This document shows, in pieces, positions 4,819 to 31,226 of a stretch of 64,000 nucleotides of DNA; the stretch's first letter is position 1; every line of letters starts with the position of its first letter. A program made the translations under genes and the position numbers. The DNA lies in contig OU612066.1 in the NCBI GenBank assembly GCA_914767715.1, positions 39,220,283-39,284,282 of the forward strand. Direction: 5' to 3'. A model generated the notes under the pieces. The model was not told the DNA's origin. It saw only the letters and a list, made by a program, of their open reading frames with translations, and did not search any database. The DNA comes from Membranipora membranacea. Its lineage: Eukaryota > Bryozoa > Gymnolaemata > Cheilostomatida > Membraniporidae.

Positions 4819-7800
4819 ATGTCGTCATCGAAAGAAAAGTTTGAGTTTAATGAGGGAGGAGAAGGTGGTACTCCGTCAGCCGAGGAGAGAGATCTGAACG
4901 AGCCTTCTATACTATACAAAGTACTGAAGACTATCAGTATAGTCATAGTGTGGATGGCTATCTATAGTAAGTATTCATGTGATAGTATGGATGGCTATAG
5001 TAAGTATTCATGTTATAGTATGGATGGCTATAGTAAGTATTCATGTTATAGTATGGATGGCTATAGTAAGTATTCATGTTATAGTATGGATGGCTATAGT
5101 AAGTATTCATGTAGTGGTATGGATGGCTATAATAAGTATTCATGTCATAGTATGGATGGCTATAGTAAGTATTCATGTTATAGTGTGGATGGCTATAGTA
5201 AGTATTCATGTTATAGTATGGATGGCTATAATAAGTATTCGTGTTATAGTATGGATGGCTATAGTAAGTATTCATGTTATAGTATGGATGGCTATAGTAA
5301 GTATTCATGTTATAGTATGGATGGCTATAGTAAGTATTCATGTAGTAGTATGGATGGCTATAATAAGTATTCATGTCATAGTATGGATGGCTATAGTAAG
5401 TATTCATGTTATAGTATGGATGGCTATAGTAAGTATTCATGTCATAGTATGGATGGCTATAGTAAGTATTCATGTAGTAGTATGGATGGCTATAATAAGT
5501 ATTCATGTCATAGTATGGATGGCTATAGTAAGTATTCATGTAGTAGTATGGATGGCTATAATAAGTATTCATGTTATAGTATGGATGGCTATAGTAAGTA
5601 TTCATGTTATAGTATGGATGGCTATAGTAAGTATTCATGTTATAGTATGGATGGCTATAGTAAGTATTCATGTTATAGTATGGATGGCTATAGTAAGTAT
5701 TCATGTTATAGTATGGATGGCTATAGTAAGTATTCATGTTGTAGTATGGATGGCTATAGTAAGTATTCATGTTATAGTATGGATGGCTATAGTAAGTATT
5801 CATGTTATAGTATGGATGGCTATAGTAAGTATTCATGTTATAGTATGGATGGCTATAGTAAGTATTCATGTTATAGTATGGATGGCTATAGTAAGTATTC
5901 ATGTTATAGTATGGATGGCTATAGTAAGTATTCATGTTGTAGTATGGATGGCTATAGTAAGTATTCATGTTATAGTATGGATGGCTATAGTAAGTATTCA
6001 TGTTATAGTATGGATGGCTATATTAAGTATTCATGTTATAGTATGGATGGCTATAGTAAGTATTCATGTTGTAGTATGGATGGCTATATTAAGTATTCAT
6101 GTTATAGTATGGATGGCTATAGTAAGTATTCATGTTATAGTATGGATGGCTATAGTAAGTATTCATGTAGTAGTATGGATGACTATAGTAAGTATTCATG
6201 TTATAGTATGGATGGCTATATTAAGTATTCATGTTATAGTATAGATGGCTATAGTAAGTATTCATGTTATAGTATGGATGGCTATAGTAAGTATTCATGT
6301 AGTAGTATGGATTGCTATAGTAAGTATTCATGTTATAGTGTGGATGGCTATAATAAGTATTCATGTTATAGTATGGATGGCTATAGTAAGTATTCATGTA
6401 GTAGTATGGTTTGCTATAGTAAGTATTCATGTAGTAGTATGGATTGCTATAGTAAGTATTCATGTTATAGTATGGATGGCTATAGTAAGTATTCATGTTA
6501 TAGTATGGATGGCTATAGTAAGTATTCATGTTATAGTATGGATGGCTATAGTAAGTATTCATGTAGTAGTATGGATGGCTATAGTAAGTATTCATGTTAT
6601 AGTATGGATGGCTATAGTAAGTATTCATGTTATAGTATGGATGGCTATAGTAAGTATTCATGTAGTAGTATGGATGGCTATAGTAAGTATTCATGTTATA
6701 GTATGGATGGCTATAGTAAGTATTCATGTAGTAGTATGGATGGCTATAGTAAGTATTCATGTTATAGTATGGATGGCTATAGTAAGTATTCATGTTATAG
6801 TATGGATGGCTATGGTAAGTATTCATGTTATAGTATGGATGGTTATATTAAGTATTCATGTTATAGTATGGATGGCTATAGTAAGTATTCATGTTATAGT
6901 ATGGATGGCTATATTAAGTATTCATGTCATAGTATGGATGGCTATAGTAAGTATTCATGTTATAGGCTCGGGTGTTAGAAAGGGGGGAGGGGGGGCAAAC
7001 CATTTATCCATCTTGCTTTACCACCACAACCACAGTGTCTCTGAAGAAACACGATCTTATCTCGATCAATCTCCACAGTGGTCAATGGCTGATATAATGT
7101 GTTTCTAATCTACTCATAATATATGTTATATCAATAACTCCTTAGTTGATGATGCCAGCGACCTGATGTTTTAGAACATTACACTCATTTTTCTGACATG
7201 AAATCCTTAACCAGAGTCAGGGATCTAGATAATCCTGAATAAAAACTTGATGCAATCTGTTATTTGAAAACTGAGCTCGCTTCCCAGATGTAGATCCCCT
7301 TTTGCGTGAGCAAAGGTTTTGCCGGGGCAAGCAACAAAAGTGAACGTAACAAATGAACAGTTTGTGTTGTCAGTTTTATAACTGATTTCATTGAGCTGAG
7401 TCTCTGAATCCGGCACATTATTTTACATCCTGTATTAGACATCAGTAGATATGAGCTGACATATCCTGATATATCCAAACCTGTTACAGATTTGATCATT
7501 AGCCTGTGACCCCATCTTATATTACAGGGCCTGTGGTCGGAGGTTAATGGAGCCACCTTCCAGGATCTCATGTTCAAGAACAGTGCTACATACGCTTCTC
7601 TGTCTAATGCAATATCTATGAGGGGTGCGGGAGGACTAGCTGGCTCTATTCTAGGTACGCACACAGTATATAACATTATATCAGCTATTTAGGAGACGGG
7701 GCACGTTGTAGGACATTTTAGGAATAATAAAGTAAATTGTCTGCTTTGTTGACCTTTGAACTTTGTGATTGGATGACTGCCCTCTTAGTTAGAATCTTCC

Positions 7801-9898
7801 GGAGAGTTCTTACTAATGAAGTGAATAATACATTAAATAAAGTAAATGATAACAATAACTATGCTACGAGAGGTTTTTCACTTCCAAGCATTACGGAGCT
7901 TGAAAATATCAAACTCTTGACCTTTAAAGTGAATTTAGCAATTTTAATATACATTAAATATATATTACCACCCCAAGCTGATTTTCCTGGGCCAAAAGAG
8001 TTTTAGAACTTTATGAAATGTAATTTCCATCTACGTCAACCTGGTCTCATGGTTATGAAATTAGAATTTGGAAATGACAGTGGCTATTTAAAATGTCACA
8101 ACAATCTCAATGTTTTACATTATAATGCAAATCAAATTCTGATTATGGTTTTATGGCAGTTTTCCAGCCAGGCCCAACGCTTAGATATACCGGAGATATT
8201 TCAGACTCCTCAGCTAATCAAGTGTCTCCTTTAAAGATGAGCAAATGAGTGAATAAATATAATAAGACCATTTTCTTGTCTCATTATATTCTGTTAATCA
8301 TCAACAACATATTATTGTGTGGTTGACTTTCCCTCCAAACTTCCCATACATAGTATATTTAGATAACACATGATTTGTATATTATATTAGGTGGAGGATT
8401 ACTCGTGGACAGATTTCACTCTAAGGCTGACTTAATCTTAGCTATCTGTGTGGCTGTCTGTGCCGTACTTAACGCCATTGTACCATACAGTCAGTGGATT
8501 GAGCTTCTCTTCGCTCTGTTTCTGCTCGAGGGATGGCTCGAGGTTATCATCAATGTCGGTAAGTTCTTATACATATACTCTAAGGTCTGATGAGTTTGTC
8601 GAATGTTGATTGTTACATTCTTCCTATTCTAATTAATGACCCACTATTTGCACTTCAATAATCGCCCCCATCAGAAATTGATTCCTGGCACATAACTTTC
8701 CCACGCCATGTACACTTATTACACAGTTAATAAATTGGAGCTAACTCGCCTGCAAAGCAGGCACTGGCTGCCCAATTATTAATAAAAAAAACTATGAATA
8801 ATATTCTGCAGTCCTTTACATAAGTAATGATTTGAGCCTAGCCTGAGATTTCTCTTTTTCCTCCTTGTAGCTGGACAGGTGGTCATTATGGATATCTGGA
8901 AGGATAAAGCCAATGGACCACTTCATCTCATTCATCTGGGTTATGGGGCGGGTAGCTTAATTGTCCCCCAAATAGTAGCACCTTTCATCAGTGATGTACT
9001 TCTAACACAAGAGGAGGCAATTACAAACCCAGCCTGTGACTTAATTTCTGAAGAATTATCACTTAACGGTACCAATATCACAACTATGGCTCCAGAACCC
9101 TCAGACAACCTGGCCACAGGATTCTGGATTGTGACGGCCTACATAGCAGCTAGCTCTGCCCTCTGGTTCGGTTACTTCTTCTTTGGTAAGAGGAAGGCCG
9201 AGAACGGTGCAGCTTCCCAGGCTAAGGATCTCAAGATTAAGCAGATATTCAACCCAAACACCTGTTCCCCCGGTCACCCAGTCTATGCAATTCTACTGTA
9301 TATCCTCATGTTCATATGGATTTATAGTGCAATGGCTGGTGATAGAATCTATGGTAAGTTTCTGTACTCCTACGGCCGACAGCATGCGTGTCTCTCTAAA
9401 CAAGAAGCTGCAAACCTCCTCACAGCATTCTGGCTCTCCTTCACAGCTGGTAGATTAGGAGGCTTCATGGTTAATAATTATATCCCGATGAAGATTTTTA
9501 TCTTTATTGAGGGTCTTGGTAATCTCGCTGCTGGCCTTGTTATATTTTTCTTTGGATCTAATAAGACTGTGCTGTGGGCTTCAGTGTGTGTGGCTGGTAT
9601 ATTTATTGGCCCATGTTATCCCTCAGGTTTAGCCTGGGCTAACCGTTACATGACTGTAACAGCTGTTGGTGTTACTGTTCTCTCTATCGGTGCTGGGGTT
9701 AGTGATCTCACATTCCTACCTGCTGTCGGTAGTACTGTAGATAGTGTCGGTATCTCTGCTATGACAGCTTTTGCTCTCGGGTTTGGAGTTGTCTGTGCTG
9801 CCCTGCCTATAGCTATGCAGGGCGCGGCCTGTACCAGAGGTGATAGGTTTGAGAGAGAAGAAGCAGAAGAGGACGGAACTCAGCAAAGTTCTCATTAA
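4819..9898 (+). CDS. MFS transporter, sodium-dependent glucose transporter 1/MFSD4-like (4 recognisable exons)
   Basis: Major facilitator superfamily membrane transporter, by family expected to move sugars or related solutes across the plasma membrane. Coding exons: 4819-4966, 7528-7654, 8391-8558 and 8871-9898 (TAA). A likely 5'-UTR acceptor lies at 4797-4799. Exon 1 gives a charged cytosolic N-terminus and the start of the first membrane helix (ILYKVLKTISIVIVWMAIY). Exon 2 has the NaGLT-type G-ATFQDLM segment. Exon 3 opens with GGLLVDRFHSKAD, the loop motif after helix 2. The long last exon carries hydrophobic helices, the internal RIYGKFLYSYG and LSFTAGRLGG segments, and ends in an acidic tail. 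About 490 residues is normal for the family. Exons 2-4 join in matching phase. The strong exon 1 donor (4967) leaves phase 1 while exon 2 is open in phase 0, so a small exon or a defect may lie between them. Substrate is inferred only. Confidence 0.8.
4967..6963 (+). repeat. 33-bp minisatellite built from the exon 1 5' splice site (about 60 units)
   Basis: The unit is 33 bp (ggatggctatagtaagtatt then catgttatagtat), with about 60 copies differing by scattered substitutions. The first, founder-like unit straddles the end of transporter exon 1: the exon ends ggatggctatctata and the intron starts gtaagtattcatg. Later units lack four bases (ctat) of the exon part but keep gtaagtat. So nearly every unit holds a candidate donor with a perfect eight-base intronic match to U1 snRNA. 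Because 33 is a multiple of three and the unit has no stop, exon 1's frame runs through the array as an 11-residue repeat (DGYSKYSCYSM) to a stop at 6976-6978. The other frame and the opposite strand are also largely open. I regard these long ORFs as by-products of the repeat, not as genes. Confidence 0.9.
6979..7527 (+). other. Rest of transporter intron 1
   Basis: Non-repetitive intron sequence after the array, ending in the acceptor ttatattacag at 7517-7527. I looked here for a small exon that would convert phase 1 to phase 0 and found no convincing candidate. Confidence 0.5.
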
Positions 9899-12860
9899 TT
9901 AATCAAACTCTTACAGCGAATCGACTGTTTCTATCATATCATAATATTTTAATAATAATTTTTCTCTGACCTGAGGGGTAAATAATACACTTTTTTCAAA
10001 TCTATTTCATGTTTTTTAAATGAATGATATTTTCAATCAAACTTTCATTACTAGAGAGATAATTTCTAAATTATTTAATGACCAGTTTGGTTAGGGCAGT
10101 CATCGGACACCTTATGAGGCAGATCACCATTTTCATCAAAGTTTATCAAAATCTGAACAATATTTTCTGCTGTAAAATATTGCTATTTTTAGCAAATTAA
10201 CCATAATAAAGTCATTAATGAATAAAGCTTGAAGAATGAACAATGCAGGTTCCTTACAAATTAGGAAAAAAGGAAAATAAATTTGAATTGTGTAAATGCA
10301 TTGAAGTTGAAATTAATTAGACTGAGCGGAGTTATAATAATATGATAACAAATATGAATTTAATCAATGAATTCAATCAATGAGGACAAGACAGGGCGAT
10401 GAATCTCCTCTGTATGGGACCATGTTAACTTCAGTTGTATGTGTAGATAATACCATTATATAATAAGTAGCCAACAGAATACATAATAGCACATGGTATA
10501 CTCAATTCACACTGAGGCCATATAATGGTTTTGGGCCAGAAGTGATCAGGCCTACAGGTACCATCCTCACATAAGGGCCCTTTCTGATGGAGCCATTTAT
10601 AATGATTCCCAGCCACCCTCGGCAATGAAATAAAATAAATAACACTTTTGTTGTAAGGAAGATCAGCAAAAGGCAGGCCTTGAACAGTTTTGTTCGTCAA
10701 CAATCGGCCAGCTATTTCTATCTGGATGGCTTGTTTTTACTGTATCTATCAAAGACCACTAGCTATGGTCTTAAATATTGAAAGAAGTATCAAAATACCC
10801 TTGTGATGTATTAATTACGGACTGGTTGTGAAGAAAGTCTGATATGGTATACATATCGATTGTAATGTTCTATCAATAATTAGTTAAATTTCATCAACAT
10901 TATCCAGGCTTGTTTACTGTCCCTAGACTGATAAATCTAAGATCTGTGGTGTGTGAGAAACCCTACTATGACTAATTAGTTAAATTTTATTACGATTTTC
11001 CAGGCATGTTTACTGTCCCTATGTTGATAAATCTAAAATCTGTGGTATGGAACAAACCCTAGTATAAATAAACATTCTTATAGACTTAAATTTCCATTGC
11101 AATATTTTAATTGCAAACAATAACAAACTCTTCTTATCAAGCATCTTTAAAACCCAAATTTCAATACACTGCACTGCATGATTTCACTGCAGTAAATCCA
11201 GAGATAGTCTGATAGTGAAGGACTCAATTCATTTTGTTTTTAACTAAGTTTTCGGCAATTTTTCATCATTACGTCTCCAGCAGCACAACATACAACATGT
11301 GAAATCTGGACACAAAGTATTGTATATCAGAATTATTCTGGTACTTCTCTGACATTATATATTATTCTGAATTATACGAATAATATTTTATATCTCAATA
11401 CTTATACTCAGCTGCCCTAACATAAGCAGCAACCACTAAATAGCCTCTCCTTGGATGGTGTAATCAAGGTAAATTTACATTTTATCATTTTGTCGTAATA
11501 TATTTCACAATCCAGGAATAACCTGTTTTTATTTGTAATTTGCGTAACTAGATTTAGAATAATTTGCACTAATTTTGAGCCATTGTTATCTAATGTTTAG
11601 TCTTACAATTGTTTTACAGCTGTGCTGTTCTCAAGATTAATTTGTTTTACATGACTCATTTTATATCAAAATTCTCAAAACCTTTACAAAAATGCTATAT
11701 GTTAACCTTATTATTTTAGTTTCACGGTGTTATCGTAAATAGTGAGAATCCAATAAAAGATTTTATGCCACATAGCATCAGTAAAAACTAAAGCACTTCG
11801 ATTAATCCGAGCAGAGAGCAGTAGGGCCGTTACATCGATTCTCCAAACACAAAACGTTTTTTCTTTATTTTCACACACTAATTTTTGCTGTAATTTCTTT
11901 GGCACGTTAAGGAAAACCTCTGTTTAGGATACAATTATCAGCCAAAAAAATATTGCATATATATCTCCATAAATTATTTGATTGGCAGTACTTAAAATCT
12001 TTGGAAGGTGTAAATTAGTTATTCATATAATGATATTGTATTTATTAATGTGATATTATTGATTACAACCCATATGGGAGACCATCTACTTAAGTTTTAA
12101 ATTTCTGCAGAACAGTAGAATCATTATAAATGGACCATTTCCTTTAATTATCCACAGGTACCTCCAGCTGAAATAAATTAAAACCTACTGGACACTTCAT
12201 AATCATATAGCGATATGTATGACCAGATAAATTTTAGTTTCTGTTTGACCACCCTCAGTTTCAATAACACATGTAGACTGCCTTTTTAAGTGGAAAGTTT
12301 CACATTCTGCACTTCATAGAATAGTATGTGGGCTGCATCTCATGTATAAAATAATGTTCAAAAATTTGCAGATATGATATTTGCAGAGTCATTGTTTCAG
12401 CTCTTTTGGGATTGGACTCAGTGCAGTTGACTTTTAATGTTGTCCTTAGCAGAATGAAGGGGTAGATTAAAGCTGTAGACAGTATCTCCTCTATCTCCGG
12501 AATTTACAGTATGACTTTTTTAATGAGGTAATAATACCAGCCTGACACTGATGACACGCCAGCAGCTTGAAATGTCATCTCATATGCACAGTCATGTGAA
12601 CACAGCAAATATTGTTATTTTATATTTCATCATCGACAAAGCGTGTGATGAAGTTCTAGAATGAGAAGACACATATCTTTGTAACCTGTTGGTATAACTC
12701 TGAGCAGGATTTATAGATTTGATGGATACTTTCACAGTCAGATAATCAACCCACTGACCTCCACCTACGCCAAGCTCGGCATATTTTCTAATATTTATCT
12801 GGTTCAAAGGAATCTTTAAAAGTCAAAGCGCTCGAGGTTGTTATACTAACCATTTGTAGT
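9899..12860. other. Intergenic, no gene recognised
   Basis: Downstream of the transporter stop the sequence is AT-rich, with possible polyadenylation signals (for example ataataaag near 10203). Apart from the 93-bp duplication at 10880-11064 no structure was seen, and the short ORFs here lack protein character. Confidence 0.5.
10880..11064 (+). repeat. Tandem duplication, unit about 93 bp, two copies
   Basis: Copies at about 10880-10968 and 10973-11064 share attagttaaatttyat, ccaggcwtgtttactgtccc and gataaatctaaratctgtgg, with roughly 15 differences. Confidence 0.8.
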
Positions 12861-12869
12861 ATTAAGTAT

Positions 12870-13725
12870 GCACTCTACAAATGTCATACACATTGACTTT
12901 CAACAAACCAGCTGTCCAAAACCATTACTGTGGCCAAACAAAATGTTTGTGAAAGCTCTCACATACGAAGCTGCTTACATTAACCATGCTGCACACAGGA
13001 AATGCCTACAGAATTCTGCAATACCTAGCCAGCTTTCCTGAAATTTACGCAACAGAATGCTCAGTAATTCCTCAAAAGTCCTGAAAATTAGCTGTTTTTT
13101 GGCATACTGTTGCGTCAAATTCAAGCAAAATGAATATGCAGTGAAAGATTATCTTAGCATTTCTTGTGTGCACCATAGTTAAGGAAAGCGGCTTGGTATG
13201 TGAGAACTTTCAAATAAACTTTGTTTGGCCACAATAATGGTATTTGGACAGCATGTTTGACGTTATGCAAAGGTGACGAAAATATTAGCTGTATTCAATA
13301 GCCCATAATTGTCATTGCAATATGCAAGCTAATTTGTTGATGAAAGTCAATGTGTATGACATTTGTAGATTACTCTAAGAGAAATTGTAATTAATTTTGT
13401 TTCAAGCCTATGGTCTGTACGGAATGATTGATTAAAATTTCACATATCTTTAAAAATTTACAAAAAAATGCATTGTATGACATGACGTAGAAAGTCACTT
13501 TAGACTAGTCATATATCAAACAAACCAAATTTTACGATGAACGCAATCTCTAAATATACATTCCACCTGTTTTGAAATATTTTGCAATTAATTTGACTCC
13601 TCCATCTGCATTGACAAAAACAGCGTTCTGTAGTTTTCGTTCAGGTATTCATTTTCAGTAGCTTGGCAGCTTTCCAGCGCTATATGATATGTTGATATTC
13701 GGATCGGTCTTTGACATTACCTTAA
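12870..13725 (+). mobile_element. TTAA-ended foldback transposon, copy 1 (left end diverged or truncated)
   Basis: The right terminus (ggatcggtctttgacattac followed by cttaa, ending at 13725) matches the right end of the copy at 30179-31798. Inside, 12870-13010 and about 13120-13380 are inverted arms: for example tcatacacattgacttt at the left against aaagtcaatgtgtatgac at the right, and ctcacatacgaagc against a diverged gcttggtatgtgag. The single unit aggaaatgcctacag near 12990 corresponds to the unit amplified about 23-fold in the other copy. There is no transposase, so it is non-autonomous. TTAA ends suggest a piggyBac- or Kolobok-type mobiliser. Confidence 0.65.
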
Positions 13726-13729
13726 GCTG

Positions 13730-14558
13730 CTGGCAAACATGGAATCTGGATAGTTTCTACTTTACTTCAATGCTTCTCCACATGTGGCTCTAACGACCAA
13801 GATGTAATATTACTAAATTGTTTTAACCTCCCATAATTAAAACTGGTCAAAAAGTAACAGAATGTTTTTTGACTTTTAACCCTAAACCGCCTAACAACAA
13901 TCCCAAAATCCACCGTGAATTGCAAAAAATATTCATATCAAATACTTCATTATTGATTTTTTGTCATGTAACTGTTTTTAATGGATGATGAGAGGGTTTG
14001 GAAACAACACCACCCAATGACTGGCAATATATTGTAGCGAAGAATGAAATCATTATTCCGATTGTCATGCTGTGACATTGATTGTGAGCTTGTAAAGATA
14101 GAGCATCCACTTGTAACGGCAGGCTTCAGATTTATTGAGGGTATCTATTTGTAGTCGTAATTCTTGGATCATTGTTTTGAATTCAGCATCATAACAGAGT
14201 GAGGGAAAGTTTGCCATACAATTAAAATCACAAACTCATTTCCATAATTCTTCTTCGCCATTCTACTGTTTAGCTCTATAGCTCTTATTGACACCACTCC
14301 ATTGTGAGCGATAAATATTTGTTAATAAATATCCAGTTAGCTTTCCATCTTGGGATGATAGAAAGTGGAGTGAACCTTGTGGCCACTGATTTTATTTATA
14401 TATATCTTAGTGCCTGCGACCTTTGACAGCTTATTACCAAAATATAATGCTTTCTTGAGAAAACTTTCTTGACGTTATCTACCACTTTTGAATTTCTATA
14501 GCACACCTAAATGGTATTTTTTTATTCTTTTCCCAGTTCATTCAGTGAAGTAAGAGCC
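13730..14558. other. Intergenic, no gene recognised
   Basis: AT-rich non-coding sequence. No ORF of note, repeat or RNA-like structure was identified. Confidence 0.4.
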
Positions 14559-15000
14559 AGACCTAGACAGGACACTATATACAGCTAAATAGTAGGTGAG
14601 GTTATGACATTGGATTATGTAGTAGCAATGATGCTACTATTGATTTACTGTCCATGTAGGTTTTTTGTTGACAACTCGATCAATTTTGATCAGATTTTCA
14701 GTTTGAAAACCGCTTTATATTCAGCAGCATATGATATCATTTTGATAATTTTTTTATCTTACAAAAGATTTTGAATCGAAAATTAATATTTAGCTGTTCG
14801 CTTTAAGCTGCTAAATCTATTTCGAACTAAAATTCTGATCCAAATTCATAGAGTTATCAATAAAAAACCTGGTACATGGACTAAAGGTCAATGAAAACAG
14901 CAAAGCTACAGCAAAATTCAATGTTGTAGCATCGTCCACGATAGAATGCCTCAGTGCCCCATGCGGCGTCCACCCTAGGTTTACCATTAAGTCTATGGTA
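14559..15000 (+). mobile_element. Foldback element, family with ends like accatagacctaatrrtaaacctag
   Basis: The left end (agacctagacaggacactat) and right end (ctaggtttaccattaagtct then atggta) are inverted versions of each other, and inner arms also match (cagcagcatatgatat region against the middle, gtcaacaactcgatcaattttgat against the right half). Diverged partial copies are at about 33684-33960, 40684-40812 and 57686-57995. No coding capacity is seen. Confidence 0.65.
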
Positions 15001-15044
15001 AAAGTTGATTACCACATCTAAGTTTATGCAGGCGTCTGATCAGG

Positions 15045-15290
15045 TCTTTCAACCTGGGATATACAGTCACAGTTTTCCAAGCTGAAATTACTGCAGACTC
15101 AAATGCTCTTACCATTGCTCAACATTTAGAAGGCCTGAATATTGTCAGCTATATCGATAGCCAGGCTGCTATGCATGCATTAAAGTGGCATTCAACCCTA
15201 GGTACCACTCAATATGAATCCACTTGCAGTTTGACTCATCAGATAGGCAACATCTACAACAATCACAATCCAAGGTATAAGCTCTAGTTC
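15045..15290 (+). pseudogene. RNase H domain fragment of a retrotransposon
   Basis: The frame at about 15060-15270 reads TVTVFQAEITADSNALTIAQ followed by a segment with SYIDSQAAMHALKW. This matches the retroelement RNase H pattern: 'VFQAEI.AI..A' with the catalytic Glu, then 'DSQAA..AL' with the catalytic Asp. Upstream and downstream parts of a reverse transcriptase were not found here, so it is an isolated fragment. Confidence 0.55.
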
Positions 15291-15737
15291 TATGCCACAA
15301 GCAAGCCCGAAAAAAATAGTTTTTATACCTTTACTTTTTCCAATAATATATTTATATGAGATTATAAATAACTTGACTGAAACACTATGGTTGAAGAAAG
15401 CTTGCAATGAAATAATCAAAATATTTTACTTTAATATTAATTTTGTCAAAACACCTTCTAGTGATGGCAAAATTGTCAGATTTTGGCGAGATGGGACGAG
15501 ACCGAGACAGCAAGAAAATTCGGGACGAGACCGGGACGAGACAGAGACATATATCGATGCCGATAAAACATTCTTCAGATATCACAATTTAAAAGAATGG
15601 TGGATATTCATTGATTCATTAGTGCAATCAGCTTATTATAGTACATTTGATTCAATTTTTAACTTGTCATCTAGCAATAAGGAACTATGTTGAGACCAAT
15701 TTTCATCAAATTCTGTCAAGTATTTATTGAATTATAG

Positions 15738-16842
15738 CAGGGGCGTAGGGAGTAACCCCTACCCCCGGCCTATCGGGGGTTGAATTTACAACTCAAGATT
15801 TTCGGGGGTTGAATAGATCTGGAGTTGGGAGAGAAAATCTGGGGTAGAAAAGTATAGCAGGCTAAAACTCACTTACTATTGCATTAAAGTGGGGTTGGGG
15901 AGCCCCAACAATCCCCAACGACATTGGGGTAAGAGTTTTTTGGTGTTGGTGTTGTTCTCCTTTTCCAAAGATTTTAGACCAAAAATCTTCTATTTGGAGC
16001 ATGCTTCCTGAAATTATTACCTCCCACCCACAAAATTGATCTGTTGTGTGTTCCTCTGGATTTTGGCCAGGTCAGTCAAAGGTCATAGCTTGAAATTCAC
16101 ATGTTTACAGGTTTTTGATGGAGAGATTGCACATTTGACTCTATTCTATGGAAATAATCCATTATTCTTGCTAAAGCAAATTTCAAGCTCAGTGGTTTTC
16201 CCATGAGTGTCCATGCTTTTCCCATTTTTTCAATAGAATAACAACAATCTCTTCTGAATTTCAATTCTCCATGACTGAGAGGTAAGTCAATTCTAATATA
16301 TTCCACAGTGGATGTGTTCCTGACCAATAGATTAAGATTGTTTGGTGGGTAGATAGAGGAAACTGTTTCTCTCTCAGTCTCATTCCTCAGTCTTACTCAC
16401 TTCACCCACCCCACCCAAACTGTGCCCTATTCAATTCAGGTCAATAACCTGGACCCACTCATTCACCACCATCATGATCATACTTGTGTTCTAACTGGTT
16501 GTCTCTGTGAGCGATAAAACTCCCATGAGTTATTGGAAATTTGCAGACACACTATTATGCCTAGCAGGTGTTTGTATGAAGGAATGAAGAAGAGAAATTA
16601 CATACATATTACTGCTGAGAGGGAGTACTTGTCACTACACATTACTAGTTGGCCCTTGACTGCCTCGAGGGCACGGTCTCCTTATCATACTGGTTTGTGG
16701 GGGTCTGTGGGATAGGGAAGGAGAGGAGACATCTCTTCTTTTTTCAAAAAGTTGGAATTGAACCCCAGATTTTTACTTGCCAACCCCGGACCCTAATTTT
16801 TTTTGCGATATGGGTTTGAATAAAATACTCAATACGCCCCTG
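15738..16842. mobile_element. Non-autonomous hAT-type element, 1105 bp, with 8-bp target duplication
   Basis: The termini are caggggcgta at 15738 and its inverse tacgcccctg ending at 16842. The element is flanked on both sides by the identical 8-bp sequence aattatag (15730-15737 and 16843-16850). An 8-bp duplication with a CAGGGGC-type end is the signature of hAT transposons. The inside has short purine and pyrimidine blocks and no transposase. The perfect flanks imply a fairly recent insertion. Confidence 0.88.
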
Positions 16843-16950
16843 AATTATAGATGTCTAAAGAAAGCTTCATGTAGTGCTGTGAGCCGTTTAATAATTGCAG
16901 CAAAAACATGACCAATAACTAAACTGAATTTCTCATGACGTCATATAAAA

Positions 16951-17014
16951 TCCGTGGCGTAGTGGGTAAGAGCGTGGACTTCACTGGGTCACTGGTTCCA
17001 GTCTGGGTGAAGGC
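16951..17014 (+). mobile_element. tRNA-derived SINE head
   Basis: tggcgtagtggg fits the RNA polymerase III A box and ggttccagtctg is close to a B box, at the right spacing. Anticodon and acceptor stems do not form a good cloverleaf, so a SINE is more likely than a functional tRNA. A tail probably continues toward 17160. Confidence 0.6.
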
Positions 17015-17159
17015 AATATTTTGACCAGCTACTACCATATGCAATGCTAGTAGTCCCGACCTGTATTAAGAGTTGTCTGTCTCGACGGGACGAGATATTG
17101 TCCTGAGGAGACAAGTCCCGCAAGACCGGAGTTGTCCCGTCTCATTGCCATCACTACAC

Positions 17160-18726
17160 CTTACTGACAATATGCACTGAGGGCTCGATGAGATTGACTG
17201 ATATGCTCACCAGCGCACAGGGGTGGCTTCATGCTACTGAGGCCGGCCATGAGGAATTTGTACTAGAGGATGCCTCGAAACAGCCCTTGACTCACAGTTT
17301 CTAGCTGACAACCTGTGTGGTGTGCAGTGGTATGCGCACCACTGTATGTTGTATCCTCCTAACATACAAACTTAAAAGGGGTAAATCATTATGCATCAAA
17401 TATCAAAATATAAATTTTGTGGTTCTTTGCTACTTTAAATCACACATGCAAACTTCAAAAATAGTATCTGAGAGACGCAAAAAAACTAAAAAATAATGCT
17501 AAGGGTGCCAAATCACATTTGTATTTTGTAATTTAACAAGCTGACTTAGTAGTGAATGCTGGTCCAGCTCAAGAACTCCGTACAACTCGATCATTCATAA
17601 AATAAGGAATCAGAAGATGGGTGATTCCAAACATGGTTATCATACAAAATCATTCATTATTAAACTGAATCTTAGATTTAAAATTTGGCTTCTTTCTGAT
17701 TTTGATAGTTAGATATCAGTAACCTCATATCACATGTGACTGGTCACGTGCAGCACAGTCAAGAAAAGACAGAGCGCTTCGCTTTGTAACCTCATGCTAG
17801 TTCTACGACCGAGCAAAGGGGGCAGCTAAGCCAACGTGTATCACATTTCAGATCTGCTCTGATTCATCCCTATTTTTGGGCGTTTTGAACACTGATGAAA
17901 GATATGTTTTATGAGGTCTGAACCCAGGTTGATTAGAGTTATCCCAAAGATAACACAAGTAAAAGCTGGTTGGAAAATGAAAAAAATTAACTCCACATGA
18001 TCATGACAGCTCCAGTGCTTCGATCATTTTCGGTCGACTCAGGGAGGGCAAAACCCACCCAGAGCTATGAATACAAGCAGTTTTCTACCCTTGCCTTTTT
18101 CTACAGGTACCCTGGATATCTATGATATGATCATGTGGTCTGCAGGCGAGCGATATCACAATGACCTTGTCAAGCGTGATGATAATTATGTTTACTGCTA
18201 GCTTTTAGCTGTCAATCACCTGCACATAATAAAGAGGGGTCAGAATAACATTACACATTGTTATAAGTAGTGATAGCCTTATCAGTAAAATTCATCGAAT
18301 AATCAAACTAGTATTTACTGACTGCACGCTGGTAATTATACCTCACTCAGCAGTCATAATATCACATTGGTTGGGACAGAAGGGTATTGCACTAAATCTG
18401 AGCAAAGTTTTAACAGGTATGTGGAAACAACTTGATACCCTGTAAAACCCTGACTTTAGAGTTAGAATTGCTGGAATTATGGCTTGGGTGGTCAATTGTG
18501 GCTCCCCATGTTGAATAGACATGCACAAAGAGACAGCACAGAAAAAATGCAAGAAAGAGAGCTAAACTTCATTCCCATCATCCTCTGAGAACAATAGATT
18601 CGATGTGGCTGCACAGCTTAGTGCATTCTCCACCCTACAGTCAGTTAAACTGTGCGATAGTAACTTTATGAAAACACTGGCAAAGTTTTCCAAACCCAAT
18701 GATGACCATTCAGACTTGTTTTCAGC
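17160..18726. other. Region upstream of regucalcin, no gene recognised
   Basis: Mixed non-coding sequence that leads into the regucalcin start. A promoter must lie somewhere near 18.5-18.7 kb, but no TATA box or other element could be pinned down. Confidence 0.4.
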
Positions 18727-21597
18727 ATGGCCGCCCCGAACGCTAAGGTAGAGGTGGTTATTGAGCACGCTGCTGCCTCTATCGGAGAAGGTCCTCACTG
18801 GGATGAGAAAGATAACAAACTGCTATATGTGGATATTCTGGATAACAAAGTACATAGATTGGATGTGGAGACTAAAGCTCAGGAGACCGTGGTGTTAGGT
18901 GAGTGTTAGGTGTGTGTTAGGTGTGTGTTAGGTGAGTGTTAGGTGTGTGTTAGGTGAGTGGTAGGTGAGTGGTAGGTGAGTGTTAGGTGAGTGTTAGGTG
19001 AGTGTTAGGTGAGTGTTAGGTGAGTGTTAGGTGAGTGTTAGGTGAGTGTTAGGTGAGTGTTAGGTGAGTGTTAGGTGTGTGTTAGGTGAGTGTTAGGTGT
19101 GTGTTAGGTGTGTGTTAGGTGAGTGTTAGGTGTGTGTTAGGTGAGTGTTAGGTGAGTGTTAGGTGAGTGTTAGGTGAGTGTTAGGTGAGTGTTAGGTGAG
19201 TGTTAGGTGAGTGTTAGGTGAGTGTTAGGTGAGTGTTAGGTGAGTGTTAGGTGAGTGTTAGGTGAGTGTTAGGTGTGTGTTAGGTGAGTGTTAGGTGTGT
19301 GTTAGGTGAGTGGTAGGTGTGTGTTAGGTGTGTGTTAGGTGAGTGTTAGGTGTGTGTTAGGTGTGTGTTAGGTGAGTGTTAGGTGAGTGTTAGGTGAGTG
19401 TTAGGTGTGTGTTAGGTGAGTGTTAGGTGTGTGTTAGGTGAGTGTTAGGTGTGTGTTTGTTGAGCCAGGGAGAATGGTTGAGTGTTAGATGAGTGTTAGC
19501 TGAGTGTTAGGTGAGTGTTAGGTGTGTGTTAGGTGAGTGTTAGGTGTGTGTTTGTTGAGCCAGGGAGAATGGTTGAGTGTTAGATGAGTGTTAGCTGAGT
19601 GTTTGTTGGGCTTTGGGTGAGCATTAGTTGAGTGTTTAGGTGTGTGTTGGGTGAGCGTTTGGTGTGCGTAAAGTGTGTGTTAAGTTCAGTTAGATGAGTG
19701 TTTGGTGAGCGTTTGATGAGCGTTTGGTGAGCGTAACGTGAGCGTAAGGTGAGCGTAAGGTGAGCGTTTGGTGAGCACGTATCAGTCTTTGTGGTTGGAA
19801 ATTGCACTGATACATGATTTGTATATTTACATGAGCACCTCCCTCACATTTATAACCTTATATAAAATCCTCAGTTCTCAGAACAATGGAGAAAGTATAT
19901 ATCTATGCAGTCATATAAGATAATCACGTACAAAAAGTATGTATGAAAGTGTAACCACTGGGATACACGACCACTGGACAGGCACAAACAACAGACGCCT
20001 AAGTCAATAAGTTACACTTATATACTTATGATGAGATCCGTAGTTGGAGCTTTAATCTGCGCTGTTTATTATAGATGGTTACGCTTCCCTGATCGTACCG
20101 AGCAGTAAAGGTGGATACATTGTGTCCTCACTGAGAAAGTTGTGTCACCTTGACTGGGACACACAGACAGTGACAGATTTACACGAGGTACCAGTTGTCG
20201 GAACTGAAGACAGGTTCAATGATGGGAAGTGTGACCCTATGGGACGACTCTGGGCTGGTCAGTGTTACAATGTTACAAACAGGAAGTACACCTGTCCACA
20301 GCAGATGTTCTTTTCAAATTTATCATATATTGATACTTGAGCCAGTTGAAAACATATTTGAAGTTTGACCTCGATTTCAATGTAGTGGCAACACTCTTAG
20401 TCTGTTATGACACTAACTTGTGCCAGAGAGATTTACTAAGAGCCTCTTTTGTATAATTTGTGGTTTACATTATTACGTTTCCAGGTACAATGGGTTATGA
20501 GAGCACACCTGGGCAGCCTGAGATTGGTAAGGGTAGTCTCTTCCTTCTCAATAAGGGACAACTCTCTACTAAAGTCAGCCCTGTCAGCATATCAAACGGC
20601 CTCGCCTGGTCACATGACAAGACTATTATGTACTATATAGACAGTATACCGAGAGTGGTCTACGCCTACGACTATGATAACGCCACCGGTGATATAAGTA
20701 CGTGTGACTTATGTATATTATTGCCTTATGCTTTATGGGCAGATTGGTTTGTTATCACTGATTGGTTGTTACTTTGTATATAGGTCAGAGTTCAAACACC
20801 ACTAATGTATACAGGTTAGCCTTGTCACACAGCTTCCTTTTTGTAGCCTAGGTTAGGTCCAAGTCTGTTATCTATAGATCTAAGATTCGGCTCGTCCTCA
20901 TTGGTCGATCTACAGATCTAAGATTCGGCTAGTCCTCATTGGTTGATCTAGAAGGTAACAGTTTATCTTTACTTACCTGATATCCGAGTTTTATCGTGTG
21001 ACATTCTACTCTCTACTCTCTACTCTCTTCTACTCTCTCTCTGTAAATCTCGGGGACATCTACTCCCTCGTTATTCTACTCCCTCGTTATTGTCGATGAC
21101 GATGTGTTTCTTTCTCACAGCTAATCAGCGAGTAGCTGTGGACTTTAACAGATGGAGTATTGCTGAGGTCGGACTCCCAGATGGAATGACGATAGATAAG
21201 GACGGTAAACTCTGGGTGGCTGGATATCTCAGCTCTAAAGTCATGCAGTTTGATCCCACAAATGGTTAGTAATAAATCGTCAATACTGCGCATCAAAATA
21301 AAAAAAGGCTGGTCATATGAGTGATGACAGATGAGATATAATGAGAGACTGATGATATCATACTTTACAAACTTTTTTTTTACAGGTGCCCTTTTGAGAA
21401 GTATTACAGTACCAGGTATTCGTACCACCTCCTGCTGCTTCGGAGGTAAGGATTACTCTGAGCTCTATGTCACATCAGCTCGTCAAGGATGGACTGAGGA
21501 GGAGTTCAGGACTAAAGATCCCCAGGCAGGCTCGCTATTAAGAATTACTGGTCTGGGTGCTAAGGGTGGTCCCGCTAATATCTACTGTGCTGAGTAA
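18727..21597 (+). CDS. RGN: Regucalcin/SMP30 (gluconolactonase-like), complete, 5 exons
   Basis: A metal-dependent lactonase of the SMP-30/gluconolactonase family, a six-bladed beta-propeller acting in the cytosol. Exons: 18727-18898, 20075-20257, 20485-20697, 21121-21264 and 21386-21597 (TAA). All four introns are phase 1 with GT-AG ends, and the joined frame gives 307 residues (human protein 299). Expected metal ligands are all present: Glu21 (SIGEGPHW), Asn156 (SISNGLAW) and Asp210 (GLPDGMTID). The substrate-site pair Arg104 and Asn106 sits in EDRFNDGK, followed by GRLWAGTM. C-terminal SARQGW and GLGAKGGP fit the last blade. Nothing is missing, so the gene looks functional. Its first intron holds an 11-bp minisatellite derived from the exon 1 donor. 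A possible polyadenylation signal is at 22012-22017. Confidence 0.95.
18893..19480 (+). repeat. 11-bp minisatellite built from the regucalcin exon 1 donor (about 50 units)
   Basis: Exon 1 ends gtgttag and the intron starts gtgagt. The array repeats exactly this joint as gtgagtgttag, with a gtgtgtgttag variant, from the splice site onward. Each main-type unit therefore holds ttag/gtgagt, a good 5' splice-site sequence. A larger unit containing tgttgagccagggagaatgg appears twice (near 19457 and 19551), and degenerate units continue to about 19775. The unit is not a multiple of three, so use of internal donors would usually shift the frame. Confidence 0.92.
19481..19775 (+). repeat. Degenerate tail of the 11-bp array
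   Basis: A higher-order repeat of about 94 bp (two copies) is followed by diverged units such as gtgagcgtttg and gtgagcgtaag. This is the pattern of an array decaying away from its growing, splice-site end. Confidence 0.8.
20873..20950 (+). repeat. 38-bp tandem duplication in regucalcin intron 3
   Basis: gatctaagattcggctmgtc followed by ctcattggtygatcta occurs twice. It is followed at 21004-21090 by short tactctc runs and a duplicated ctactccctcgttatt motif before the acceptor. Confidence 0.8.
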
Positions 21598-22819: not shown

Positions 22820-22966
22820 TTAATAATGGCTCGAGATAACTGTTTAAATGACTAAGCAGTTTTGGAATGAATATGTTGAGTCATTATTATTGATGGATAA
22901 AGTTGTTCAAAGTTGTGCTTAGCGATCATTACTGCCCCGCTCTCCAAACAAAACAGACAGACAGAC
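22820..22966 (+). promoter_or_regulatory. Probable promoter and 5' leader of the selenoprotein gene
   Basis: The sequence just upstream of the selenoprotein ATG, ending in a gaca-rich run. It is duplicated, together with exon 1, at about 56190-56490. No TATA box is apparent, and the promoter role is inferred only from position. Confidence 0.35.
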
Positions 22967-25900
22967 ATGGAACAGAAAAGACTTCAGGTGACAATATCCA
23001 GATGGTGAGTTAAGTATCATCACATATAGTAATATTCATACATGCAGTCCGATAGCTATACAGGACTTCATAAAGCTAACCAATTTCTTGCCTTTCCCTG
23101 AATTGTACTAAGGCCAACTCTGATAAATATGGAAATGGTTCTTATTTGGAGTCAGCATGAGAGTTGAAAGTGAGTTAAGCACAGCACTTTTAGGGACAAA
23201 AGTGTGTTGAGCTAACTGGCCAGCTGATGTACTCATTATGTATCGTTTCTGACTTTTTACAGCTCTAGCTGAGGGTACGCACCACGAGCGAGATCGCTCA
23301 AAACTTACATCGAGAGCGTTGTGCCGGACGCCATTGTCAATGTCAAGGCTGGCCGAGCAAGTGAGTGAAGAACAAACACAATGTAGCTGTAGCTTAGTTT
23401 GAGCTCTTAGATGGGTCACCATTGGTCTCAGATAGGTCACTCCAAGACCAAAGTTTGTCTATTTACCTGCATTTGAAGTTGCTCCCCTTCCACTGGTCAC
23501 GCCGCAGGCAAAAAGTTTTGCTAGTGGCTTGACCAGCGGAAGGGGAGCAAGAAGTGTGTAGGCAAACTTGATCAAACTTGTTCTAGGTCTCTCAAGTTTG
23601 AGCGATCAAACTGTGGCGGGATAGCTGGTATAGCTGGTAGATGGCTGGTAGGTGGCGGGATAGCTGGTAGGTGGCGGGATAGCTGGTAGAGGCATTTCAC
23701 TATCAACCACTTTCCCCGCCCACAGATTAAGAACCTGCCCATAAAGTGTGGAAGTAATCAATCACCTCCCTCTTTGTGCAGAGATGACTATCAAAATAGT
23801 GTGGTGGTGGGGAAAGTAGTTGATAATACTAGAAATGCCGCAATCGATCGATATTATATAATTGTATATAGTATGCATGTATGTATTATATAATTGTATG
23901 TATTATATAATTGTATGTAATATCTAATTGTATATAATATATAATTGTTTGTAATGAGTGTATGTAACAAAACATGATATAGATGCCAATAGGTTATTGA
24001 AAAAAAATCGTCTTCACCGGGATTCGAACCAGGCCTCTCGCCACTTTGCCTGTTTTTTGGTCACAACCGGGAACTTAATGAGGTAGTGGGTAAAAGTAAT
24101 CCACCAAGTATTTAGGAGAAGTTATGAAAATATCAGACAACACCAGGACATGAACTTGAGCCTCCCGTGTTGCAATTGACCATGCTAACCACTCAGCCAC
24201 ACCTTCCCGCTGATGCTTGAATGGGTAAAGTGTAATTTTGTTCAATTTTTCTTTTATTTAAACTTTAATGGCACATATTAGGCAAAAAATGTGTAAAAAA
24301 TGTTACATGCACATGCGCAACTGGATTTACTACACACATGTGGTTGAAGACAGGACTTTGATATAGACATTCCTTTTATTTTCCAAAATAACCTTTTTTG
24401 AAAAAAGTGTTATGAGGCACTGGATATGGGTTTCTTTTATTTTATATACACATGCGTTTATCATAAACACAAAACTGAAGTTTTGTGGAAAATACCTCTA
24501 CCAGCTATCCCGCCTCAGGTTGATCGCTTTAACTAAGGTCACCCCCAACATTTCAAACTTAGATTCTTTAAACTCAAGCTTTAATTCTTTTTTTTCTCTG
24601 ACTATTTCATACGTTGGCATGCAGACATGTCAACCAGCCACAAAAACCTTGGCTCAGCACACCACACGGGTTTGCAGCGCCAATCCAGAACAACTGAGGG
24701 GGGGGGGGGGGGTTTGGGGCTCCAGAAAAATAAGAGGATTTCATTCCCATATGCACATCTCATTTTTAACAGAAATTAATACAATTTAATTTGATAATAA
24801 ATAATAATATTTTATTTGTCAAAAAGCAAAGAATGGACAGATTTTATGTTAAGGTCAAATTTGCATAATTCTTGGACAATCCCTTGAGTCCTTGGACAGT
24901 TGACCCATATGTATTATGGTGATCGGGCTGATTAGTGGTAGTGGATATTAGCACAGAGACATCTGGTAGCAGCTGACTCCAGATTTGAGAGCAAACATTG
25001 TACTGAAAAATTGATTTCCTCTCAATTTGCTTGATTAGCTAAATTCCCAGCGGTGACACTGAGATAAATCATGTTTTACAATTTTAGCCTCTTATGAAGT
25101 GGAGGTAGATGGATTTCTTATTTACTCCAAACTAAAGATGAAGAAATTCCCTGATGAGGTTGCTGTGAGTATAATCAGGGTTCTATGCCTCTATGTTTAT
25201 TTGGTTTGAGGGATGTCACTCCTTACACAAAGCTGAGAAGAGATGTCAGTCTGTTGAGTAACGGGAAATGAATCTTGTGATGGGAAAATTTATCCTTTCC
25301 AAATTAACCAACTCTCCTATGCAGAGATTTATCCCCTCTAGAGTACACATACTTGATCATATCATGCTCGAATCAAATGCTTATCGGAAACCCAGCTATT
25401 ATCCATAATAAAGGCACAGTGTATCTTTTTACTGCATGTGATGGGCTTTACAAATTGTCTTCCAATCTAATCCCATGAGTAACTGATTAGAGATTATTTG
25501 ACAGTGATCTGAAATAACTGCAAGCACCCTGAACAGAGTAGGTCCAAGCCTCGAAAACATTAACATAACTTGAGTACTAAGATCACAGCACTGATAAATT
25601 TGGCAGAAAGTCTTCAATTATATATTCAAATATATAACCTGCCCCTCCCAAACTTACTGAGAGCACAGTATGGTTGTGAGTCAACGAGGGAGATGACTTC
25701 CACTGTCAGCTTTCTGAACAATGAACTTTCGCTTAGCAGATACTGATAAATACATTACTATGGTGATTGAGGTAGAATGATATGATTTTTGCCTTTATAC
25801 TACTGGGGTGAACGTCACGATCATCCTCAGTCTATCGAAAAGCTGTTCTAAACACGAGACCTGGAGATGCATAGACTGCACCCAAATATTGCTGGTCTAT

Positions 25901-26023
25901 CATTTATCCTAAATTCTGTCATTTTTTAAATTTTAGATTGTTAATGAGATCAAAGCTGTTGCAAGAGGTCAGAAGAAAGCAGAAGTAGTAGAGGAGAAAG
26001 AGAAGACATGTTGTATTCTGTAG
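22967..26023 (+). CDS. Selenoprotein W/MIEN1-like Rdx protein with in-frame UGA (Sec16), 4 exons
   Basis: Thioredoxin-fold Rdx-family protein, by family a small redox protein. Exons: 22967-23004, 23263-23360, 25088-25164 and 25937-26023 (TAG). Phases 2, 1 and 0 match at every join, giving 99 residues. The only interruption is TGA at 23270-23272, exactly the second active-site position of the family CxxC/CxxU motif (Cys13-Ser-Ser-Sec16, followed by GYAPRA). Upstream LQVTISR is the first beta strand, and exon 3 has the conserved SYEVEVDGFLIYSK strand pair with KKFPD. The protein ends EKTCCIL, a CaaX prenylation box like the CVIL end of MIEN1, so membrane attachment is likely. A SECIS candidate lies 254 bp after the stop. 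Read as a stop, the TGA would leave only 15 residues. Of the Rdx members, MIEN1-like fits best because of the CaaX end. Confidence 0.88.
23270..23272 (+). other. Selenocysteine codon (TGA)
   Basis: The TGA is the fourth position of Cys-Ser-Ser-X in a Rdx-family active site. The exon stays open for 88 nt beyond it with family-like sequence, and both flanking splice phases fit. Reading it as Sec is supported by the SECIS candidate at 26268-26333. Confidence 0.85.
23479..23550. repeat. Hairpin in selenoprotein intron 2
   Basis: ttgctccccttccactggtc and gaccagcggaaggggagcaa are near-perfect inverted arms around a loop of about 32 bases. It is a small foldback sequence and lies in the intron. Confidence 0.85.
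23614..23690 (+). repeat. Short tandem repeat of ggcgggatagctggta
   Basis: Three main units plus shorter atagctggta variants are visible, next to the inverted-repeat element at 23691-23839. Confidence 0.8.
23691..23839. mobile_element. Small MITE-like inverted repeat, 149 bp
   Basis: The left end ggcatttcactatcaaccac and the right end read as diverged inverses of each other (…gttgataatactagaaatgc c), with inner ctttcccc and ggggaaag also paired. No target duplication could be assigned. Confidence 0.6.
23852..23960 (+). repeat. AT-rich tandem repeat (tatataattgtatgta)
   Basis: About five diverged units of 18-22 bp lie in selenoprotein intron 2. Confidence 0.75.
24006..24212 (-). mobile_element. 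tRNA-derived SINE(s) in selenoprotein intron 2
   Basis: On the minus strand, 24212 to 24138 reads as a tRNA-like head with a perfect A box (tggctgagtgg) and a B-box-like ggctcaagttc. A second B box (ggttcgaatccc on the minus strand) lies at 24018-24030. The two may be fragments of related SINEs. No cloverleaf convincing enough for a real tRNA gene was found. Confidence 0.6.
24213..25087. other. Selenoprotein intron 2, 3' part
   Basis: Non-coding. It includes a G homopolymer of about 16 bases near 24696, a common assembly weak point. It ends in the acceptor attttag at 25081-25087. Confidence 0.6.
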
Positions 26024-26096
26024 AGGAGACATGTTGTATTCTGTAGAGGAGACATGTTGTATTCTGTAGAGGACACATGTTGTATTCTTTAGATAT
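26001..26096 (+). repeat. 23-bp tandem repeat of the selenoprotein C-terminal codons and stop (4 copies)
   Basis: The coding end agacatgttgtattctgtag (Thr-Cys-Cys-Ile-Leu-stop) is copied three more times immediately downstream, the last ones with small changes (…gacacatgttgtattctttag). The first copy is coding; the others are 3' UTR. The 23-bp period keeps the copies out of frame with each other. Confidence 0.9.
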
Positions 26097-26267
26097 CCTT
26101 ATAAAATAATCCACCACGCCTCAGCCATCAATAGTGTGTTGATTCTTAATCTCAATTCTGTACTTTTTAACAGTCTGACTCAAACTCATTACATCCGCAT
26201 GAACCATCAGACCCTCTCTTACATATAACTATGATATAGATGTATTAGGGCCATATGTTATATCAGC

Positions 26268-26333
26268 ACCAGCCTAATGACTGGGTACATCTAAACTCAC
26301 ATTCGAGTGATCTACCCATGATGCTCTACTCAT
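26268..26333 (+). promoter_or_regulatory. SECIS element, form 2 (candidate)
   Basis: The SECIS core is complete: 5' ATGA at 26277-26280 faces 3' TGAT at 26319-26322, which would form the non-Watson-Crick GA quartet. Above it, tgggtacat (26282-26290) pairs with atctaccca (26310-26318) with one C-C mismatch. Unpaired AA lies at 26293-26294, 12 nt after ATGA, the expected distance. An extra apical stem, actc (26295-26298) with gagt (26305-26308), makes it form 2. It recruits SBP2 and EFSec for UGA decoding. The lower helix is weak by eye. Confidence 0.82.
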
Positions 26334-26485
26334 GCTCATATAACTGTGTCTGCATATTATATCTATCAAGATGTGAAAGACTTTATTCTTCGTGCAAGTG
26401 AAAACGGTACATCTTATCCATAGAATTATATTTTTGAAAGATAGTTACTATCTTACAATCACATTTTATGAGAAGGATAAAGAAC

Positions 26486-26491
26486 AATAAA
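26486..26491 (+). terminator. Polyadenylation signal AATAAA of the selenoprotein gene (candidate)
   Basis: The first canonical AATAAA after the SECIS candidate, about 460 nt past the stop codon. Position is the only evidence. Confidence 0.45.
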
Positions 26492-26499
26492 ATCACGTC

Positions 26500-30832: not shown

Positions 30833-31226
30833 CTGTAGGCATTCCCTGTTTGTAGGCATTCCCTGTTTGTAGGCATTCCCTGTTTGTAGGCATTCCCTGT
30901 TTGTAGGCATTCCCTGTTTGTAGGCATTCCCTGTTTGTAGGCATTCCCTGTTTGTAGGCATTCCCTGTTTGTAGGCATTCCCTGTTTGTAGGCATTCCCT
31001 GTTTGTAGGCATTCCCTGTTTGTAGGCATTCCCTGTTTGTAGGCATTCCCTGTTTGTAGGCATTCCCTGTTTGTAGGCATTCCCTGTTTGTAGGCATTCC
31101 CTGTTTGTAGGCATTCCCTGTTTGTAGGCATTCCCTGTTTGTAGGCATTCCCTGTTTGTAGGCATTCCCTGTTTGTAGGCATTCCCGGTTTGTAGGCATT
31201 ACCTGTTTGTAGGCATTCCCTGTTTG
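30833..31226 (+). repeat. 17-bp minisatellite (about 23 units)
   Basis: The unit gtaggcattccctgttt is repeated almost without change. The related transposon copy at 12870-13725 has only one such unit (opposite strand, near 12990), so the array grew after that copy's insertion. Minus-strand ORFs over the array (17-residue repeats) are artefacts: 51 bp equals three units and 17 codons, which leaves all three minus frames open. Confidence 0.92.

Follow-up and report, generated by a model that had tools for sequence, protein, structure and literature searches.

Tandem arrays on splice donors and a stop codon in a bryozoan genome: silent edge duplications grown into minisatellites?

Why should two neighbouring, unrelated genes each carry a tandem array seated on the splice donor of a coding exon? 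The question is raised by a 64-kb stretch of the genome of the bryozoan Membranipora membranacea (contig OU612066.1; C2:39220283-39284282), referred to here as the window. This nuclear DNA belongs to a genome of 339 Mb and 18 contigs, and the end of its 39.5-Mb contig is 245-309 kb away. Gene 1 encodes a protein like the sodium-dependent glucose transporter NaGLT1/MFSD4 and gene 2 a regucalcin/SMP-30-like protein; the closest named protein relatives of both belong to Watersipora subatra. The preferred answer, given a probability of roughly 0.6, is that duplications across 3' coding edges leave the product intact and expand as ordinary minisatellites. The arrays are probably a striking but non-functional oddity.

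Tandem arrays were called over the whole window with Tandem Repeats Finder (TRF), whose 20 rows merge into 17 arrays. Array 1 (4962-6965, + strand) comprises 60.7 copies of a 33-bp unit with 95% matches. It starts at the final 5 bases before the GTAAGT donor (at 4967) of the first coding exon of gene 1 (4819-4966, + strand). Array 2 (18892-19775, + strand) comprises 81.1 copies of an 11-bp unit, GTGTTAG|GTGA, and starts at the final 7 bases before the GTGAGT donor (at 18899) of the first coding exon of gene 2 (18727-18898, + strand), which ends in ...ETVVL plus G. Its 3' end, degenerate after 19460, extends about 300 bp beyond the limit drawn in a first-pass annotation of the window. Both units resemble an exon end followed by its donor, that of array 1 being approximately GTATGGATGGCTATA|GTAAGTATTCATGTTATA. 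TRF and exon mapping thus confirm what that annotation had reported, namely 33-bp and 11-bp arrays at the donors of two unrelated genes. The end of the gene 1 exon is in register with the 33-bp unit (ATAGTGTGGATGGCTAT against ATAGTATGGATGGCTAT), and its last 40 bases score 31 against that unit, which a single one of 2000 shuffles equals or exceeds. Since the best other 40-mer in the window scores 29, the letters do not by themselves settle an exon-end origin of array 1. The exon is alignable to its relatives up to 4962, after which TATA, part of a 4-bp CTAT duplication, precedes GTAAGT. The acceptors of both introns, at 7528 and 20075, lie outside the arrays, which make up 78% (gene 1) and 75% (regucalcin) of the intron. 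Inverted repeats amount to one pair per region in the two regions searched.

Donors are not the only edge involved. The last codons and stop of gene 3, a MIEN1/Rdx-like gene (22967-26023, + strand), are found in ACATGTTGTATTCTGTAG, which recurs about four times with a 23-bp period and runs into the 3' untranslated region (UTR). This stop-codon array (25999-26093, + strand; 4.1 units) has the same geometry as the donor arrays: the first unit is coding and the later ones are 3' UTR.

The placement of these arrays exceeds what random positioning would give. All randomisations used coding edges from three genes only, and their P values ignore that the window was singled out for this very finding. 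With that reservation, two array boundaries within 10 bp of the seven donors of genes 1 and 2 have a probability of 0.00275 under random placement of the 17 merged arrays, which supports the earlier judgement that chance was an unlikely cause. Uniform placement gives P = 0.00025 for what is seen at the 13 3' coding edges, where three of the 17 arrays have their 5' end 0-30 bp inside the edge; for a looser count, of three arrays spanning such an edge, P is 0.021. Of the 3' coding edges, 3 of 13 are spanned by an array, as against 0 of 13 5' edges. A further array taken for comparison (30834-31226, no strand assigned; 17 bp x 23, TRF) spans none of the 26 coding edges tested.

The phenomenon recurs beyond the two genes, as the first-pass annotation had expected. 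A genome search with the 11-bp array recovered at least one other locus, C5:2586689-2587854, in an unrelated, arfaptin-like gene. Here a 289-copy array of an 11-bp unit (TTAGTGTTAGG) begins 10 bp past a donor and occupies 93% of the intron; the acceptor (position 6070 of the reverse complement of locus L043) is again outside it. Joining this donor to the acceptor 3417 bp further on yields a continuous protein with a gapless alignment to residues 49-115 of the Arfaptin-2 chain 4dcn (E = 5.7e-22). Since the match starts at residue 49 of the solved chain, earlier coding exons are to be expected, and the array donor is probably not the first of its gene; two candidate upstream exons gave no arfaptin match in searches of PDB.

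This bears on the claim that such arrays belong to first introns. The part that stands is that each array follows the first coding exon in both window genes. Restriction to first introns is doubtful, given the arfaptin exon and the acceptor-like sites found 19 and 1 bp upstream of the ATGs of gene 1 and gene 2, which rank in the top 2.2% and 8.4% of 4026 AGs; on the same score seven confirmed acceptors, left out singly, rank from 1.3% to 35%. Because these sites stand just before both ATGs, a 5' UTR intron may precede either coding sequence. A first-intron rule was accordingly set aside as doubtful.

The transporter locus has three more copies (A, C3 and C6) besides gene 1 itself, which is duplicate copy B, and each of them carries the 33-bp array at the corresponding donor. 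TRF gives 4.1 units in A, 60.7 in B, 52.7 + 104.7 (about 157) in C3 and 4.1 + 5.1 in C6. Like an ordinary minisatellite, the array is built head to tail and differs in copy number between locus copies. Copy A (locus L009), about 5.4 kb upstream of gene 1, has four open exons in frame (GCT ATA|GTAAGT) and four core units, three of them with GT. Copy B has 60 full units, and owing to its CTAT repeat the donor and exon 2 are in different frames (VWMAIYRPVVGG*). In copy C3 (locus L010), exons 1 and 2 are present and a strict core count gives 111 units; exons 3 and 4 were not found in the 6.8 kb beyond exon 2. Copy C6 (locus L011) has a frame change within exon 2, and exons 3 and 4 were not found in the 2.9 kb beyond it. 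The two largest arrays of the family therefore sit in copies, B and C3, that look broken. Downstream of the C3 fragment (L010 1-180 and L012 5582-6001) there is sequence matching the region upstream of copy A; the fragment thus seems to be part of a larger segmental repeat.

Copy B looks like a decaying duplicate on further grounds. The protein P0001 (JGI) is identical to copy A save for 2 of 488 residues. In comparison with it, all 18 polarisable residue differences are derived in B, with 12 of 30 differences not polarisable and 14 of the 17 non-P0001 matches used (P0016-P0018 left out); a majority rule gives 24 to 2. The ratio of nonsynonymous to synonymous divergence (dN/dS) between A and B is 0.48 overall and 0.24, 0.81 and 0.16 in codons 1-175, 176-371 and 372-488, at a dS of 0.06. 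Between these tandem duplicates (L009 3952-7161; window 4819-9898), codons 176-371 hold 23.5 of the 32.5 nonsynonymous differences and the codons beyond 371 hold 1, a clustering that suggests gene conversion or uneven relaxation. Diagnostic variants are common to the arrays of A and B in the first unit (GTGATAG) and in the last-but-one (TTAAGTATTCATGTCATAG), with further changes in each copy. Such shared ends suggest internal growth of the copy B array from a short one.

Products assembled from these genes give an indication of donor choice. The contig behind P0001 has 2101 bp, and the protein is considered cDNA-like because this is shorter than the 3.2-kb gene. It reads WMAI|GLW with no array residues, and hence the first donor is used in the assembled sequence; in copy A, two other GTAAGT units follow in frame after that donor. 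Translation of the 33-bp array as coding sequence, which its open frame would allow, was rejected, as this copy A protein lacks it. The second protein, P0019 (JGI; 1128-bp contig), represents gene 2 or a close paralog: 251 of 253 residues agree with gene 2, the junction reads VVL|DGY, and the window's only + strand copy of GTGGTGTTAG is at the end of gene 2 exon 1. P0019 starts exactly at the last three codons of that exon, the seed of array 2, by coincidence or because the assembly forked at the junction, for which alternative donor use would be one possible cause. If the first donor is read through, a stop precedes the donor of the next unit in gene 2 (VVLGEC*) and follows within five codons in the arfaptin-like gene (LLGECI*).

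Downstream units carry many weak donors. In array 1, GTAAGT is kept in 49 of 60 units; the donor +1 G is changed in the other 11, which makes it the third most variable of the 33 positions. The first 51 strict in-register units of array 2, out of about 81, comprise 35 with GTGAGT and 16 with the weaker GTGTGT. In the arfaptin array, 286 units include 224 with GTTAGT, 49 with GCCAGT and 3 with GTGAGT, and 3 of the 286 are as strong as the true donor.

The preferred reading, that silent duplications at 3' edges expand as ordinary minisatellites, draws these observations together. (i) A short tandem duplication straddling the 3' edge of a coding segment, be it a donor or a stop codon, would arise. 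(ii) Provided that splicing or translation takes the edge signal from its first copy, the product would be unchanged, the remainder becoming intron or 3' UTR. (iii) Such duplications would survive because the product is unchanged. (iv) Expansion via replication slippage or unequal exchange would follow, until the array fills most of the intron. The arrays would then record the sequence of the exon edge and would not be maintained as U1 sites; no selection would act in their favour. They would grow large in gene copies already broken (transporter B and C3), or in genes whose first donor still prevails (regucalcin and arfaptin). This sequence of events would cover donor arrays and stop-codon array alike, as well as donor decay and first-donor products.

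Several points weigh against it. Silence accounts for tolerance, not for enrichment at edges; because the enrichment is left unexplained at both counts (P = 0.00025 and, more loosely, 0.021), edges may also be more prone to duplication. The contrast between 3' and 5' edges is not significant (Fisher P = 0.22), and the 3' direction is therefore only suggestive. The 11-bp units of regucalcin and arfaptin are near-identical, so that an independent origin must lean on the donor consensus filling most of the unit. First-donor use is read from two assembled proteins and one homology join, not from sequencing reads. The copy-number contrast comprises four loci, among which C6 is broken yet short, and regucalcin, apparently intact, has 81 copies; the array may moreover have contracted in A rather than grown in B. 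Finally, donor positions +2 to +6 are invariant in the 60 units of array 1, and GT is kept in all 51 strict units of array 2.

A bolder reading can be put forward tentatively: that in this bryozoan minisatellites arise by preference at the 3' edges of coding exons, giving introns a directional growth. Donor or stop-codon seeds would then recurrently turn short introns into kilobase arrays, consisting of up to 93% donor-edge repeats. Duplications at 3' edges would be tolerated, and those at 5' edges not, because splicing and translation take the first copy met. The suggestion that donor arrays form a common class throughout the genome found no support in a 200-kb sample (20 stretches of 10 kb at round coordinates, contigs C1-C5 only). 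One of 37 sampled arrays with a period of at least 7 contains GTRAGT, in a 355-bp unit of two copies; 179 permuted hexamers give a mean of 1.69, and 144 of them reach 1 or more. At the resolution of this sample the class, if real, is not common.

It is unlikely that mutational bias accounts for the arrays. On this explanation tandem duplication strikes donors especially often, as they are GT-rich, G-skewed and possibly, on the non-template strand, prone to R-loops; arrays would start there more than elsewhere, and no benefit is needed. The excess over uniform placement would follow, as would recurrence across three unrelated gene families, and GC skew is indeed +0.59 and +0.91 in the two donor arrays compared with +0.02 in the 30834 array. 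This skew is not independent evidence, as it follows from a donor-like unit. The stop-codon array, moreover, is not at a donor, and the sampled arrays hold GTRAGT in no excess over permuted hexamers.

Copying of the 11-bp array between the regucalcin and arfaptin introns, by gene conversion or ectopic repair, is improbable. The units GTGAGTGTTAG and GTTAGTGTTAG are one base apart, and both arrays start beside TAG|GTGAGTGT. Against this, the shared letters are mostly donor consensus and the exon ends differ (TGGTGTTAG and AACTGCTAG). No similarity was seen outside the array: tblastn with regucalcin gave none, and neither did low-complexity-filtered blastn, which likewise returned nothing for the array itself.

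DNA near chromosome ends is rich in minisatellites. Little credence is given to the corresponding explanation, in which the first-pass annotation picked out two arrays that merely happened to fall on donors in such a region. The window does lie close to a contig end, and arrays cover 6.6% of it as against 1.9% of the 200-kb sample. The content of the units, which resembles the exon edge, is not explained in this way, nor is the low probability of the two donor coincidences. The one other 11-bp-array locus among the matches listed also abuts a donor, and over 1 Mb separates the C5 and C6 loci from contig ends.

Selection for many intronic U1 sites, proposed in the first-pass annotation for telescripting or a boost to transcription, is highly improbable and was rejected: although 49 of 60 units in array 1 and every strict unit of array 2 keep GT, and U1 pairing places the array donors in the top 1.9% and 0.03% when set against 3341 other GT sites, preferential conservation is confined to the GT of array 2, with the +1 G so variable in array 1 and the true arfaptin donor stronger than 283 of the 286 units, while AATAAA/ATTAAA occurs once in intron 1 of gene 1 and not at all in that of regucalcin, the introns are otherwise short, and the intact transporter copy manages with four units.

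If the edge rule were true genome-wide, it would provide a simple, testable reason for introns to grow from their 5' ends. Array donors would then serve as natural experiments on donor choice, in which similar 5' splice sites follow one another by the dozen or the hundred and the first is apparently the one used. For one array the transporter family sets a time scale, the intact copy having about 4 units and a duplicate, at a dS of 0.06, having 60.

The remaining features of the window provide the setting. Gene 1 continues with exon 2 (7528-7654, beginning GLWSEVNGATF...), exon 3 (8391-8558) and exon 4, which holds the stop (8871-9898), all on the + strand. Gene 2 continues, also on the + strand, with exon 2 (20075-20257, beginning DGYASLIVP...), exon 3 (20485-20697, both edges read from the sequence), exon 4 (21121-21264, 3' edge so read) and exon 5 with the stop (21386-21597). 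Gene 3 consists of four exons (22967-23004, 23263-23360, 25088-25164 and 25937-26023) with canonical splice sites, and ends in KTCCIL*. It was identified by Pfam Rdx (51.5 bits) and by C17orf37 in PDB (E = 2.1e-7); a protein search found no relative. An in-frame TGA lies in a C-S-S-U(-G) motif, aligned to a Cys of human C17orf37, and the C-terminus, CCIL, is CAAX-like. The product is a probable selenoprotein; an Rfam search of 22900-27500, taken to E = 5, gave no match to a selenocysteine insertion sequence (SECIS) family. An inverted repeat in a gene 3 intron (23473-23559) has several weak microRNA-family matches under gathering scores. About 0.9 kb 3' of the gene, 26900-26955 resembles a type-P1 twister ribozyme (39.2 bits, E = 3.4e-6, under the Rfam gathering score of 67.2).

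By eye, the unit of the 17-bp array at 30834-31226 looks like its flanking sequence and like a stretch near 12998, and the array has possibly grown inside a dispersed repeat. Two N-terminal fragments of guanylate-binding protein (GBP), just over the Pfam cut-off, lie on either side of it (29610-30068 and 33370-33666). The 37-47 kb region has two reverse-transcriptase matches (Pfam RVT_1), of which one passes the curated cut-off and the other falls short of it, together with an endonuclease-like match that narrowly misses its cut-off; these are probable remains of a retrotransposon.

Minisatellites at donor edges have precedents. Titles and opening lines of abstracts on bryozoan tandem repeats contain nothing on point, which is no claim that such arrays are unpublished, and two other papers (PMC4039745, PMC12783039) describe intronic minisatellites rather than donor arrays. 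In the polyubiquitin gene UBC, tandem arrays of dual-specific AGGT sites are described (PMC10809524). The units of array 2 hold TTAG|GTGAGT, likewise formally both a 3' and a 5' splice site. They differ from UBC, as presented there, in being non-coding, 11 bp long and devoid of a pyrimidine tract, and an acceptor role for them is at most putative. In the tandem genomic duplication model of intron gain, as outlined in the sections seen of PMC3443670 and PMC4974935, a duplication across splice sites, or one creating them, leaves no trace in the mRNA if splicing picks the right copies. The duplicated donor of the bryozoan genes, in contrast to that model, belongs to an intron with its own acceptor, and no new intron is shown.

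The nearest parallels are human. Genes in segmental duplications have variable internal tandem repeats at the exon-intron boundaries of recent paralogs, with units of 30 bp on average and 27 intron modifications, according to the portion consulted of PMC2812944. These too are minisatellites at exon-intron boundaries. There, novel introns or alternative transcripts are possible and arrays average about 4 units; here the acceptor lies outside the array and the array is most of the intron. In IFI6 (6-16, G1P3), a minisatellite reported by Turri, Cuin and Porter (1995, NAR 23:1854) and known here through citing papers, two downstream repeat units act as splice donor sites (PMC4526556, in part). 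The bryozoan loci share with IFI6, so far as these sources describe it, tandem arrays at an exon-intron boundary whose units carry the 5' splice site. They differ from it in that two cDNA-like proteins use the first donor, in array sizes of up to 289 copies, and in the involvement of several genes.
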